Shown: piece after piece, positions 52,452 through 62,397 of the stretch
Position numbering within the stretch: the stretch's first letter is position 1
How the letters are laid out: each line of letters starts with the position of its first letter
Assembly (NCBI GenBank): GCA_001464955.1
Contig: LNEM01000034.1
Span: 18,558-82,557, forward strand
Source: Rhizobiales bacterium Ga0077537
Lineage (GTDB): Bacteria; Pseudomonadota; Alphaproteobacteria; Rhizobiales; Hyphomicrobiaceae
Length of the DNA stretch: 64,000 bases
Reading direction: 5' to 3'
Translations under genes and position numbers: made by a program
Notes under the pieces: model-generated
Database searches by the model: none
Seen by the model: the letters and a program-made list of their open reading frames with translations, nothing else
What the model was told of the DNA's origin: nothing

Positions 52452-52484
52452 ACGGCCTCGCTGACGGGCGCTCCCCTGCGGCGT

Positions 52485-52579
52485 GGAGGAGAATTGGTCC
52501 CGGTGGGCCATCCGGACTTCAAATCCGGAGAGGGTCGCAAGACGGCTCTTGGTGGGTTCAACTCCTGCCTCCTCCGCCA
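52485..52579 (+). tRNA. selC: tRNA-Sec (anticodon TCA)
   Basis: GGAGGAG acceptor, CCGGA-CTTCAAA-TCCGG anticodon arm, long variable arm GAGGGTCGCAAGACGGCTCTT, GTTCAAC T-loop, CCTCCTCCGCCA 3' end. Confidence 0.95.
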
Positions 52580-56094: not shown

Positions 56095-56454
56095 GGCGCC
56101 CCCGATGTCACGGCATTTCAGGCGACTTGCGGGATCAGCCCAAGCCCGCCCTGTGGGGGTCGCGCCCGCTCCCCATTGAATCCTGTCTGGGGCCCCCTAT
56201 ATCGCGTCATCCGGTGCGGCGCCAGATGGCAGGGCTGTCGCCCGTGCGGGCGGGTCGAGGACGAGAGCTTCCGTAGCTTCGCCCTCCCCGCCCGCTGACG
56301 CTCGCTGCCGCAATCCTTCAACCGGCCACTCGTTCCCGCCTGGTGGTCGCAGCCTCGCGATCGCCGAAGCGTTACGTGTGTTCGGGCCGCCGGCCGTCCG
56401 ACGCACGGGCAATGCTTGTGCTCCCACGTCAGTGACGCTACATAGCCGGGCTCA

Positions 56455-56529
56455 GGGCGGGTAGCTCAGTGGTAGAGCATCTGACTTTTAATCAGATGGT
56501 CGTGGGTTCGATCCCCACCCCGCTCACCA
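56455..56529 (+). tRNA. tRNA-Lys (anticodon TTT)
   Basis: GGGCGGGTAGCTCAGTGGTAGAGCATCTGACTTTTAATCAGATGGTCGTGGGTTCGATCCCCACCCCGCTCACCA. Confidence 0.96.
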
Positions 56530-56722
56530 ATGAAATCAAATACTTAACAAAAATCAACCGCTTCCCGAGAATGCTCCGGCTAACATCGGGATAACTTTTT
56601 CCTGCGCATCGTTGGCGGGTTCAGTGGGTCGGGAGCACACCGGCTAATTTGCATGATCAACGCTGACTTACTTGCTCTAGCAAGCAACCCTTGGCCGGGC
56701 GATCGTGACCGGCAGATGGCGC

Positions 56723-57625
56723 TCATGGAGCGCCCGATTGCCTGCCTTTCAGCCACGCCACCGCCTGGCTCGCTTTGGCGGCGGCGGTGAAGATCGCCTT
56801 CGGATCGCTCTTCAGGAGCTGCAGCCAGTTGGCGATGTACTGGGCGTGGTCGGCACGCGTGTCCTGCGTGACGCCGGTCTCGGCGCACAACATCGCGGCA
56901 CCGATCTCAGCGATCAGCTCTTCGGCGGCATAGGCCTCCTTGCCGAACCGAGCCGTGAGATCACGATCGCAGCGGCTCTTATGGCCGGTCCAGTGCGTCA
57001 GCTCGTGCAGCAGCACGGCATAGTAGCCTTCGTCGCGGGTCATGGTGTCGGTGCCGCAGAACAGCGCCTCGTCAGGCATCTGGATGTGGTCGCTCTTCGG
57101 CGCGTAGCAGGCGCGCTCGCCGCCGTGGCGGACGTCCGCGTCGCAGGCCGCGATGAAGCGGTCGGCTTTCTCGATGCGTGCGATCGGGCCGAGCCGCTCG
57201 GGCAAGCCAGGATCGTCGAAGCCTTCGACCTCGGCGATGTTGAACACGGGCGAGGCCTTGGCGACACGGCGCTTGCCGTCATCGTCGGCGCTCTCCGGAT
57301 CGGGATCGACGTCATACTCCTTGTAGAAGATGACGAGCTCGGACTTCGCGCCCTTGACGACCTGGGCGCCAAGCTCGGACCACTGGCGATACGTTGCCCA
57401 CAGCGGCGAAGTGAAGCCGCGCAGTTCAGCAGCGACCCAGAGGTTGACGGTGTTGATGCCGTTGTAGGCGGCCTTGGACGAGGCGTTCTCGGGTATCCAA
57501 AGCGGACGACCCGAGCGCCGCCACGGCATCTGCGGCTTGCCAGGATCGGCTTCGATGGCCTTGATGAGATTGGCGGTGATCTCGGCGTGGAGATCGCGCT
57601 TCTGTGCGGTGTTGCGGTTTGACAT
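56723..57625 (-). CDS. ArdC-like protein (N-terminal ssDNA-binding-type region + zincin metallopeptidase domain)
   Basis: MSNRNTAQKRDLHAEITANLIKAIEADPGKPQMPWRRSG...NGINTVNLW; LLHELTHWTGHKSRCDRDL; YAAEELIAEIGAAMLCAETGV. Confidence 0.92.
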   Translation of the reverse strand: MSNRNTAQKRDLHAEITANLIKAIEADPGKPQMPWRRSGRPLWIPENASSKAAYNGINTVNLWVAAELRGFTSPLWATYRQWSELGAQVVKGAKSELVIFYKEYDVDPDPESADDDGKRRVAKASPVFNIAEVEGFDDPGLPERLGPIARIEKADRFIAACDADVRHGGERACYAPKSDHIQMPDEALFCGTDTMTRDEGYYAVLLHELTHWTGHKSRCDRDLTARFGKEAYAAEELIAEIGAAMLCAETGVTQDTRADHAQYIANWLQLLKSDPKAIFTAAAKASQAVAWLKGRQSGAP

Positions 57626-58224
57626 GTTCGGGCTCCATTCATCTGCGCCCGCCATGAGCGGAGGGCGTGACGAACGGAGCGCCGCGGGGACCGAGGGGGC
57701 GCGGAACCCGAAGGGCGGCCTGGCCGCAGGCCAGAGTCCGAGGCCTTCAGGCCTTGAAGCGCCCCGCCCCGCGGCCAAAGTCGGCACAAATGCCCACCGC
57801 CAGGGCGGGCTGGTCAGGAGGAGACCGAGCAAACTGCGAGAGCGCGACAAGGCGATCGCTGAGTCGCGGCGAACAACGAGCTGCGCCAACCTTTGCCGTC
57901 AAACAGCTGGAGCGAGTTGGGGGGCGTTGTCGAACGGGAACGCGCTATGATCTACGCTCGATCCCAGAAGCGGAAGTCGAAGACTCCCAACAGATGAACC
58001 AAAGTACGGCATGGCTCATGTCCGCTAGTTTGAGGACTTCGTCAGGCGTGGATCAGCAATGCCCCACCAACTGCGTCGACTGTGGACAGCCTCCTCCAAC
58101 GGTTGCCTGCCTATCGGTTTTCGCCGAATGTTAGGCTAGGCATGGCGTAATTACTTGCGACTCGGCAGTGCGGACGGTCGCCCTAACGGCCTGTTGGCCG
58201 AGATGAGCGGTTCGGAGCCTAATC

Positions 58225-61200
58225 ATGCCTCTGGTGAAGAACCGACGTGTTCGCATTCGAGACGACGGCAGTGGCAACAAGCGTGAAGTCGACGGCACCT
58301 TTGCCGAGTTTGCCCATGCAGAGGCAATCGTTCTCCTTGGTGATCCTGGTATCGGCAAATCCACCCTCCTGACCGAGTTCGGTGGTAGCGACTGCGCAAC
58401 CGTCCGACAGTTCCTGTTCGAGCCCAAGCTACCCGCAGGATCTGCGCTTTTTCTCGATGGGCTAGACGAATACCGCCGTCTTCGCGGAGCAGTTGCAGCT
58501 CCGGACGATCTGGTCGCTAAATTGATTGAGCTGGGCCGCCCCAGATTCTGCCTCTCCTGCCGCGCCGGAGATTGGTTCGGAGAGATCGATCAAGAGGCAA
58601 TTCGACTGGCAAGCCCATCTAGACGTGTCGTCGTTCTAGAACTGATGCCGCTCTCCGAAGACGAAATCACTCAGTTGGCCTCAGAGCAACTTCCCGACGC
58701 TAAGACATTCCTCGATGAGGCCGTTTCGTTCGGTCTTGCTAAGCTCCTCGGCAATCCTCAGACGCTCGATCTATTTATTCGGGCGTGGCGCTCCGGACGA
58801 CGGCCTCGGAACAAGTTCGAAGCGTATCAGTACGGCATTGAGGACCTGATCCGGGAGACCAATCGCTTTCATTCAGGACGCGGGGCCAGCGCGATCCCTG
58901 CCGCCACCCTTTGGAGCGCTGCAGGAGCAATCAGTAGCATAGGCCTCCTTGGCCATGCGGTCGGCGTCACGCGAAGGCAAGACGAGTCCAGCGACGAGTA
59001 CTTCGCTGCATCGGTGGTCCCATTCGACATACCGAGCGCTGTCGACGAAACCTTGGGGCGTCGCGTCTTCACATCGCCCAGCACGGATTGTTTCCAGCCG
59101 TGTCACCGAACCATTGCGGAATTCCTAGCTGGCTCAGACTTGGCGAAGCGTGTTGCCGCCGGTCTTCCAACTAGCCGTGTACTGGCTCTGATGTGCGGAT
59201 TGGATGGTGCCCCAATCGCCGCACTTCGCGGTCTATTCGCATGGTTCATGTGCCATCTGTCGGCACGGGCCGAGCCCTATGTCGGTCTCGATCCATACGC
59301 CGTCGCGACTTATGGCGACGCGAGTGTGCTGCCGCCTGCCGTACAGCTCGCCATGTGGAATGCGCTCGGCCGGCTCCGCGATCCTTGGTTCCTCACCAAC
59401 GAAGACGATCGAGGTACCTTCAATGGCCTTGCCAATCGCGACACGGCACCTCGTCTCAAGCAATTGCTCGTCGATCCTCAGACTGCCGTCCACCTGAAGA
59501 TTGCAGCGCTGGAGGCGCTGGCGACCGCCAGCTCCGATCTCGGGTTGGCCGCCGAACTCGAGTCCATCGTGCTCGCGCCCCTGGACAACTCGTGGCTGCG
59601 ATCCACTGCTCTGAAAGCCCTCGCCAAAGCGAAGGGCGACGACGTCACGTATTTCGAGACACTCGATGGTCGATTGTCGTCCAGCAAGCCAGACCCTGCT
59701 GCCGCAGAGTTGCGCGCCACCTTGCTCACTGTACTCCCGCCGAGCCGAGACATTCCATCTCGCATTCTCTCTATTCTTGATCAAGCGAGCGACCCTGCGA
59801 TTGGGAAGCGGGCGATGGGATACCTCCTTCCACTTCTGCGCGTACCGACCGAAGCGCAGCTGGACGCACTCATTGACGGTGCGCAGACGCTCATCAGTCG
59901 AAAGGGGCCTCGCAAATACGAAATCCGACACCTTTTCTCGGATTGGTTCATCAGGCGGCTTATCGACCCACGGCCAGTTTACGCGTCGCAGCTGGCACGG
60001 TGGCTCACGAGCATCTCTGTTGAACGCAGCAGCAGCAACGACCGCTTGGTTGCGGCGATCAAGGCTAGATTCGAGCTTGAGCCCCGACTATTCGGGCTCG
60101 TATATGACGCACTCTATTCGGAGCAAATGTTCGCCAGCGAGCGTGATCAATGGCTCTTCATCGTTCACGATGTCTGGGAGGCGCTTCCGCCCGCCCTCTG
60201 GCCCGACGCTCAGGCAGAGTTCTTCCTCCAGAAAGCGAGACACGAACCAGACGCCGAGCACGCCGCCAACTTCTTCCGAATGTTTCTGAGCCACTTGCCT
60301 TCGTCGGGCGTTGATCTCGAATTGACGGACTCAGCGTTCTCACTAGTGGATTCGCGATCAGACCTGGCTGCTGCACTTGGCGACTGGACAGTCTGCAAAC
60401 TTGAAGACTGGCGTTTGAAACGCTGGCAGGAACAGGTCGAGCGCGCAGAAGCAATGGCTAAGAGTCGCGCGGAGAACATCGCGCAGCTGACACCCCACCT
60501 TCACGAGATTCGCGCTGGCAGCCACGGCAGCATCGGTTGGGGCGCACAGATTTATCTCGGCTACTGCGACGATGCCAGTGCCGCCGCGCCCAGAGATCGC
60601 CTCCTGAGCGTTCTCGATGAACCGCTCACAGACGCCTACATCGACGGGTTTGGCGCCTATCTCCGCAATGGGTCGGTACCAACTGCCGACGCAATTATCG
60701 AACGGTGGGCGAGGAATAGCATTCCTTATTCCCATCTCCTCGTCTCACTTGCGATCTACTGCACGATGCGATCGACAGGCGACGTGCCAGAAACGGCGCA
60801 CGCATCCTGCGTCGCCGCTGCGATCACCGAGCTGCACAGAGGTGATCTGGTTCCCGGATACGATGCGACGATTGAAGAATGGCTGGCGAGCCAAGCCCAA
60901 ACGAATCCCGAATGCGTCCAGCCGATCTTGGTCCAGGCCTGGAAAGCGGCCGTTGACCAGAAGCGCGGCTATCTACCTGGACTGCAAGATCTCGAAAAGG
61001 TACCGGGTGCCGCCTCCATGCTTGCCGAGGTCGCGATGCACGTGCTGTCGTCCGGCATAAGGGACCAGCACGGCACGGTCGAACAGCTCGTCACGCTCCT
61101 CTTGCGTCACAATCCCAATGCCATACCTGCACTGGCGGGTGAGGCACTTGCCGGCAATTCTGCATCTCCCGAGGTTGTCGGCATTTGGACCGCCGCGCTC

Positions 61201-62208
61201 TTACTGACCGCAGGCCCAAATGACACCTCGGTCTTGTCGACGCTGTCCACGGCAGCGGAGGAGACGTTGTGGGCAACAATCGAAGTCTTGAAGAGCGGTC
61301 GCTTCAATCATCCGGAAGCGCCTGCACTCTCAACTGCCAAACGTGCTGAAGTGGTCGCGCTGTTCGGTGCACGGTTTCCGAATGCTGGCCACCCGCTCGG
61401 CGAGACCACATATGGGCATCAGAACCCCTGGGATGCCGCAGAATTCATCGGAAACCAGATCAAAGCGATCGCAGGCGACAGCTCTGCTGAGGCCGATGCA
61501 CATCTGGCTAGGCTCGAAGGCGATACAGCCCTGACGAGCTATCGAGATGCGATCCGGCACCATCGCGCTCAACGCGAAAAGCAGGTGCGAGAGAACACGT
61601 TCGTGCCAGCGGACGCGGCAGGTGTGGCATTGGCTGTGGAGAACGCGGCACCCGCCAATTCAGCGGATCTCCTCGCTTATGTCGAAGAGCATCTGCGTCT
61701 TCTGGATGCCGAAATGAAGACGACCTCATACGAAAGGCACCAAGCCTACTGGAATAAGAAGGACCGAACCTTCGTGTCGGTAAAGCGTGAGGAGGATTGT
61801 TCAGGTCTTCTGGCGCACGACCTGCAGGCGCGAATCGGACCCCATGGCCTCATCGCGACTGTAGAGCACCACATGGTCAACGATAAGGAGTGCGATGTCG
61901 CTGTTCTCAACGGAACGTCTCATCTTCTGCCGATCGAGGTGAAGCACCATTACCATGCAGAACTTTGGACTGCATGGAGGACCCAACTCGACAGACTGTA
62001 CACCCGTGATCCGAAGACCGGAGGCTTTGGAGTGTACTGCGTTCTATGGTCAGGCAGAGCGCACGGGCGGGACACACCGAAACCGCCCGACGGGATCGCG
62101 CGGCCTACGTCCGCCGTCGAACTTCATAATGCGCTGGTGACTCTCCTTCCACCAAATGATCAGGCTAGGCTCAAGGTAGTTGTTTTGGACATTAGTCCGG
62201 CATTGTGA
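58225..62208 (+). CDS. Large NACHT-like STAND NTPase with HEAT-like middle region and putative C-terminal PD-(D/E)XK nuclease-like domain; candidate anti-phage protein
   Basis: 1327 aa; Walker A GDPGIGKST (58339-58365), NACHT-type Walker B ALFLDGLDEY (58444-58473), RFCLSCRAGDW, FQPCHRTIAEFLAGSDLAKRV; C-terminal KECDVAVLNGTSHLLPIEVKHHYHAELWTAWRTQLDRLY. Confidence 0.8.
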   Translation: MPLVKNRRVRIRDDGSGNKREVDGTFAEFAHAEAIVLLGDPGIGKSTLLTEFGGSDCATVRQFLFEPKLPAGSALFLDGLDEYRRLRGAVAAPDDLVAKLIELGRPRFCLSCRAGDWFGEIDQEAIRLASPSRRVVVLELMPLSEDEITQLASEQLPDAKTFLDEAVSFGLAKLLGNPQTLDLFIRAWRSGRRPRNKFEAYQYGIEDLIRETNRFHSGRGASAIPAATLWSAAGAISSIGLLGHAVGVTRRQDESSDEYFAASVVPFDIPSAVDETLGRRVFTSPSTDCFQPCHRTIAEFLAGSDLAKRVAAGLPTSRVLALMCGLDGAPIAALRGLFAWFMCHLSARAEPYVGLDPYAVATYGDASVLPPAVQLAMWNALGRLRDPWFLTNEDDRGTFNGLANRDTAPRLKQLLVDPQTAVHLKIAALEALATASSDLGLAAELESIVLAPLDNSWLRSTALKALAKAKGDDVTYFETLDGRLSSSKPDPAAAELRATLLTVLPPSRDIPSRILSILDQASDPAIGKRAMGYLLPLLRVPTEAQLDALIDGAQTLISRKGPRKYEIRHLFSDWFIRRLIDPRPVYASQLARWLTSISVERSSSNDRLVAAIKARFELEPRLFGLVYDALYSEQMFASERDQWLFIVHDVWEALPPALWPDAQAEFFLQKARHEPDAEHAANFFRMFLSHLPSSGVDLELTDSAFSLVDSRSDLAAALGDWTVCKLEDWRLKRWQEQVERAEAMAKSRAENIAQLTPHLHEIRAGSHGSIGWGAQIYLGYCDDASAAAPRDRLLSVLDEPLTDAYIDGFGAYLRNGSVPTADAIIERWARNSIPYSHLLVSLAIYCTMRSTGDVPETAHASCVAAAITELHRGDLVPGYDATIEEWLASQAQTNPECVQPILVQAWKAAVDQKRGYLPGLQDLEKVPGAASMLAEVAMHVLSSGIRDQHGTVEQLVTLLLRHNPNAIPALAGEALAGNSASPEVVGIWTAALLLTAGPNDTSVLSTLSTAAEETLWATIEVLKSGRFNHPEAPALSTAKRAEVVALFGARFPNAGHPLGETTYGHQNPWDAAEFIGNQIKAIAGDSSAEADAHLARLEGDTALTSYRDAIRHHRAQREKQVRENTFVPADAAGVALAVENAAPANSADLLAYVEEHLRLLDAEMKTTSYERHQAYWNKKDRTFVSVKREEDCSGLLAHDLQARIGPHGLIATVEHHMVNDKECDVAVLNGTSHLLPIEVKHHYHAELWTAWRTQLDRLYTRDPKTGGFGVYCVLWSGRAHGRDTPKPPDGIARPTSAVELHNALVTLLPPNDQARLKVVVLDISPAL

Positions 62209-62397
62209 CGAAGTGCAGGGCCTCAGGGCCGACACTTTGCAAGTCTGCTTTGGGGACTCGTGCCGCCATTGTCTCAGATCGGCGATAACAATGAGAGTCG
62301 AATGAATCTATGGCGGCTTTCTCTGCAAGGCTCTGGTTTCAAATGCGAAATGAGCGACGGAAAACTGTTCACATAGCGTTTCAACATAGTCGGTTGA

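Follow-up and report, generated by a model that had tools for sequence, protein, structure and literature searches.

The locus raises the question of whether a single large protein, with an NTPase module at its N-terminus and a putative nuclease at its C-terminus, represents a new form of phage defense or belongs to a family that already has a name. The first-pass annotation took the former view and proposed a candidate new anti-phage system. In the window, by which we mean the whole 64,000-nucleotide stretch of DNA that was analyzed, ORF analysis confirms the gene as it had been reported: 1327 aa, 58225..62208 on the + strand, with an ATG start and no interruption. A GGAG lies about 10 nt 5' of the ATG, the region of the gene has a GC content of 0.59 vs ~0.68 for most of the window, and the genome contains one copy.

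Placement in the EruA family

The proposed novelty does not hold, as the whole architecture is already covered by an NCBIfam model that is annotated as antiphage. This profile, NF058535.1 ('NACHT domain-containing antiphage protein EruA'), matches the 1327-aa protein with 836.5 bits (E = 5.3e-251), and the match is co-linear and full-length, pairing protein residues 8–1324 with model positions 2–1318 of 1318. It also matches 18/18 members of our family alignment, which comprises the window protein and 17 relatives at 19–87% identity. The curated equivalog cut-off of the profile is 1000 bits, a value exceeded by several members, including L051 (1190), L058 (1229), L060 (1295), and L061 (1147). 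The window protein falls below this cut-off, as do its close kin L014 (831 bits) and L056 (791 bits). Pfam NACHT scores 15.8 bits against the window protein, under its own cut-off of 26.7, and a search of PDB sequences returns no match with the protein and P-loop matches only with the profile. The PADLOC 2.0 profile search, one of the checks suggested by the first-pass annotation, yields 0 families at E ≤ 1; EruA is absent from PADLOC 2.0, and PADLOC alone would have made the gene seem new.

A maximum-likelihood tree was calculated for 35 proteins without an outgroup. It groups the window protein with L014 and L056 on a supported branch, which is nested in a 100/100-supported set of 19. Two over-cut-off proteins, L051 and L111, lie inside this set, and the other ten over-cut-off rows of this unrooted comparison lie outside it. 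Because over-cut-off members are found on both sides of its lineage, the window protein falls within EruA unless the root lies on the window's own branch. Profile and tree together thus place the protein in the family, and we class it there as a divergent member; since 836 bits is less than the cut-off, we do not claim the strict label 'equivalog of EruA'. With this locus, a recently named antiphage family gains a divergent branch. Our preferred reading, which we hold with good confidence, is that the locus encodes a one-gene, NLR-like immune protein that would act by sensing, assembly, and cleavage.

The small sub-branch of the window protein, L014 (genome G026), and L056 (genome G048) is drawn from one taxonomic family. 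A different reading of this branch is that the three proteins make up a functionally separate NTPase-first/nuclease-last subfamily, whose trigger and activation geometry would be unlike those of the characterized EruA and of the N-terminal-effector bNACHT and Avs proteins. We regard this as possible, though doubtful. The antiphage role of EruA itself rests on its NCBIfam name, because a primary paper describing the family did not turn up in our literature search for EruA and HyoA. The single bacterial EruA that did turn up (PMC12839154) is an unrelated SlyA-type regulator, and the DefensePredictor paper (PMC13092281), considered as a possible source of the names EruA and HyoA, contains NACHT hits and neither name.

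A single-gene block and its mobile setting

When the window is compared with G026, a genome of another genus in the same family, the alignment is confined to 57962..62255 (a block with no strand of its own), where the identity is 86.7%; the flanks in G026 are unrelated. The block is ~4.3 kb long, sharply bounded, and low in GC, and it holds the eruA-like gene only. No partner gene therefore travels along, and a partner was rejected as a candidate, in keeping with the earlier remark that none was visible. G029, a genome of the same genus as the window, shares the left (ArdC-side) flank up to 57966, after which an IS110 transposase gene, named from its sequence, follows. A search for an empty site found no genome carrying both flanks without the insert. 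Judged from these alignments, the eruA-like gene moves, or was inserted, as a ~4.3 kb one-gene unit, fitting a mobile one-gene system and providing a case of a putative one-gene defense block common to two genera.

Among the near neighbors of the gene in the window, the only one related to defense encodes an ArdC-like antirestriction protein (56723–57889, − strand) with ArdcN and MPTase-PolyVal domains, which is divergent from the eruA-like gene and adjoins a tRNA-Lys. In G029, the two stretches that match window positions 56414–56824 and 56819–56996 are found on a single contig with ~4 kb between them, which suggests that an insertion has interrupted the ArdC-like gene there. The tRNA-Lys (56455–56529), beside which the eruA-like gene had been placed, is indeed present, but the two are 1.7 kb apart with the ArdC-like gene in between. 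It was rejected as an attachment site, as no repeat of its 3' end (at least 14 nt) occurs within the window, and on these grounds we consider the link to be weak; the contig stops at the end of the window, and a distal att site may lie beyond it. A tRNA-SeC with anticodon TCA is also predicted in the window by ARAGORN (52484–52578, + strand).

EruA matches at E ≤ 1e-40 occur in 30 of 399 Pseudomonadota genomes, nine of them above the cut-off, and EruA-like relatives are additionally found on 25 plasmids, on IMG/VR viral contigs, and in prophages. The neighborhoods of individual relatives contain a complete type I R-M set (L058), Cas1 together with the PADLOC candidate PDC-S01 (L061), restriction enzymes, a reverse transcriptase, and AbiEii (L046), Ppl and Abi (L053), TrlF (L049), and SIR2 (L051), with integrases also among the neighbors. 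The neighborhood analysis that had been proposed as a check thus finds the relatives in defense and mobile contexts. A protein with a Pycsar-cyclase-like C-terminal match is encoded near an EruA-like gene at L062:162-2036.

This setting bears on what the protein is aimed at. The same protein could have plasmids or competing mobile elements, and not phages, as its main natural target, so that it would serve inter-element exclusion. Conjugative plasmids or prophage-like contigs carry many of the relatives, relaxase or transfer genes adjoin some of these, and the ArdC-like gene next to the window gene is of a kind typical of mobile elements. However, the NCBIfam name is an antiphage one and phage-defense genes recur as neighbors, and the two roles are compatible with each other; we consider a function directed mainly at plasmids or competing mobile elements to be unlikely.

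Domain architecture and proposed mechanism

The motifs on which the first-pass annotation relied, GDPGIGKST, LFLDGLDEY, RFCLSCRAG, HRTIAEFLAGSDLA, DVAVLNGTSHLLPIEVK, and QLDRLY, are all present in the protein, and they are not a product of chance, as their key residues are invariant in the alignment of 18 members. The first domain (residues ~1–330; 58225..59214, + strand) comprises a NACHT NTPase and a winged-helix-like part, with Walker A at residues 41–46, Walker B at 76–82, the sensor R113, and the WHD histidine H294. A P-loop, an acidic Walker B of the NACHT type, and a WHD-type histidine are thus all found, and G42, G44, and K45 of Walker A, D78, D81, and E82 of Walker B, R113, and H294, R295, and E299 are identical in 18/18 members. 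An AlphaFold2 model of residues 1–560 (pLDDT 82.8, pTM 0.82) returns NLRC4, NOD2, and NLRP3 as its top Foldseek matches in the PDB, with a probability of 1.00 and E-values of 1.3e-7 to 1e-5. The predicted fold of the N-terminus is that of a NACHT module related to the animal NLR immune sensors, which bears out the NACHT/STAND core that had been read from the motifs.

At the other end of the protein, residues ~1180–1327 (61762..62205, + strand) form a putative nuclease domain of the PD-(D/E)XK type. All 17 members that keep the C-terminus share E1189, E1214, D1224, E1238, K1240, Q1254, and Y1259. A model of residues 1040–1327 (pLDDT 81.5, with most of the core at ~85–95) displays an alpha-beta-beta-beta-alpha-beta (helix-strand-strand-strand-helix-strand) core, with strands at 170–177, 183–190, and 194–202 in the model, flanking helices, the IEVK motif on the third strand, and the D and (D/E)xK residues in register. 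Its Foldseek neighbors are mostly PD-(D/E)XK enzymes, including Can1, McrC, NucS/EndoMS, and EcoRV, with low TM scores; the best has E = 0.0097, and none reaches E ≤ 0.001. As each match is weak, the fold assignment leans mainly on the topology and the invariant residues, which point to a restriction-endonuclease-like core with predicted nuclease activity and agree with the domain that had been proposed for this end.

Two viral contigs each encode a NACHT protein of more remote similarity, one of 1448 aa (L072:216-4562) and one of 1277 aa (L073:4725-8558), with the same C-terminal nuclease motifs, and these may mark a wider NTPase-first/nuclease-last superfamily. The EruA-like L057 (G050:C9:364567-368505, − strand) has one TGA ahead of its nuclease domain, and is a pseudogene, a sequencing error, or a truncated form. 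The EruA-like match in L050 (MT835554.1), an unverified bacteriophage scaffold from human feces, is divided over two ORFs and sits at the scaffold's end.

The region between the two domains (residues ~331–1100; 59215..61524, + strand) is a helical middle and a putative sensor. DSSP assigns an alpha-helical repeat to the part of it covered by the model, which extends to residue 560, and ARM/HEAT-type proteins appear as secondary Foldseek matches of the same model, in agreement with helical repeats after ~residue 400; the helical middle described earlier is thereby recovered. Identity to the window protein is lowest over residues 561–1100, at 11–29% across the relatives other than L014, which is 87% identical. 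With L014 set aside, it is 24–51% over residues 1–330 and 28–59% over the nuclease (1180–1327). Conserved ends around a fast-diverging middle are as expected if the middle is a sensor. The conserved core of EruA can be described as two terminal parts, a NACHT module and a REase-like nuclease, separated by a fast-evolving helical region. The domain assignment also upholds the NTPase-first/nuclease-last order.

The presence of McrC and other PD-(D/E)XK enzymes among the structural neighbors of the C-terminus brings to mind a restriction-like enzyme, in which this domain would directly cut particular foreign DNA and the NTPase would serve in DNA translocation or loading, as in McrBC. The NTPase, however, resembles the NACHT modules of NLRs and not the AAA+ McrB. 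STAND signaling also accords with the long helical repeat and with the WHD-type histidine, which is invariant, and we find an McrBC-like enzyme quite improbable. That the gene is a decayed or silent passenger has hardly any credence with us. In favor of this view, one could cite the two interrupted relatives (L057 in G050, and L050) and a simple scan, uninformative in this clade, that detects no sigma-70-like promoter. Against it, the 1327-aa frame is intact with every catalytic residue kept, and another genus has an intact copy that is 87% identical.

The EruA-family protein of the window probably works by sensing, assembling, and cleaving, as an analogy with the NACHT proteins of bacteria and animals suggests. 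In the resting state, the NACHT module would hold ADP in a closed form, with the WHD histidine H294 of the HRTIAEF motif contacting the nucleotide. The helical-repeat middle would recognize an infection cue, such as a protein of the phage or a disturbance of a host process, and this recognition would lead to nucleotide exchange and NTP-driven self-assembly of the NACHT module. We infer that assembly would bring the C-terminal PD-(D/E)XK domains together so that DNA is cut, with either the death of the cell or the destruction of the invader genome as the outcome.

Comparison with known systems

EruA is the closest named system. The match to it is co-linear and full-length, relatives above its cut-off carry all of the invariant NACHT and nuclease residues, and it too is a single gene. 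The window protein differs in its score of 836 bits, below the 1000 of the family, in its small sub-branch, and in its identity of 19–27% to the other aligned members. HyoA (NF058534.1), a second NACHT antiphage family, shows distant co-linear similarity over residues 131–1286; at 99 bits, far under the cut-off of 1200, the protein is not HyoA by profile.

Avs/AVAST STAND NTPases, some of which carry nucleases, have the general STAND logic in common with the window protein, and direct sensing by Avs is mentioned in PMC12169576. The window protein differs from them in its lack of a PADLOC match and in having its effector at the opposite end. The clade 6 proteins bNACHT25/32, which possess an N-terminal PD-(D/E)XK DNase, a central NACHT, and a C-terminal sensor, degrade DNA on phage sensing in a manner that requires the nuclease residue; bNACHT25 becomes hyperactive and constitutively active when a histidine of its NACHT is replaced by leucine in the H506L variant (PMC12169576). 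The window protein resembles them in its NACHT module, its PD-(D/E)XK-type effector, and its conserved NACHT histidine, and by this analogy H294 (HRTIAEF motif) is a candidate equivalent of the bNACHT25 histidine. The window protein nevertheless has its NTPase first, its helical middle next, and its nuclease last, and in placing the NTPase first and the nuclease last it reverses the layout of the well-described bNACHT proteins. In the bacterial NLR-like proteins described, the effector is typically N-terminal, and the EruA layout poses the question of how an N-terminal NACHT switches on a C-terminal nuclease; it is in this reversed domain order, together with the distinct sub-branch, that the interest of the locus lies.
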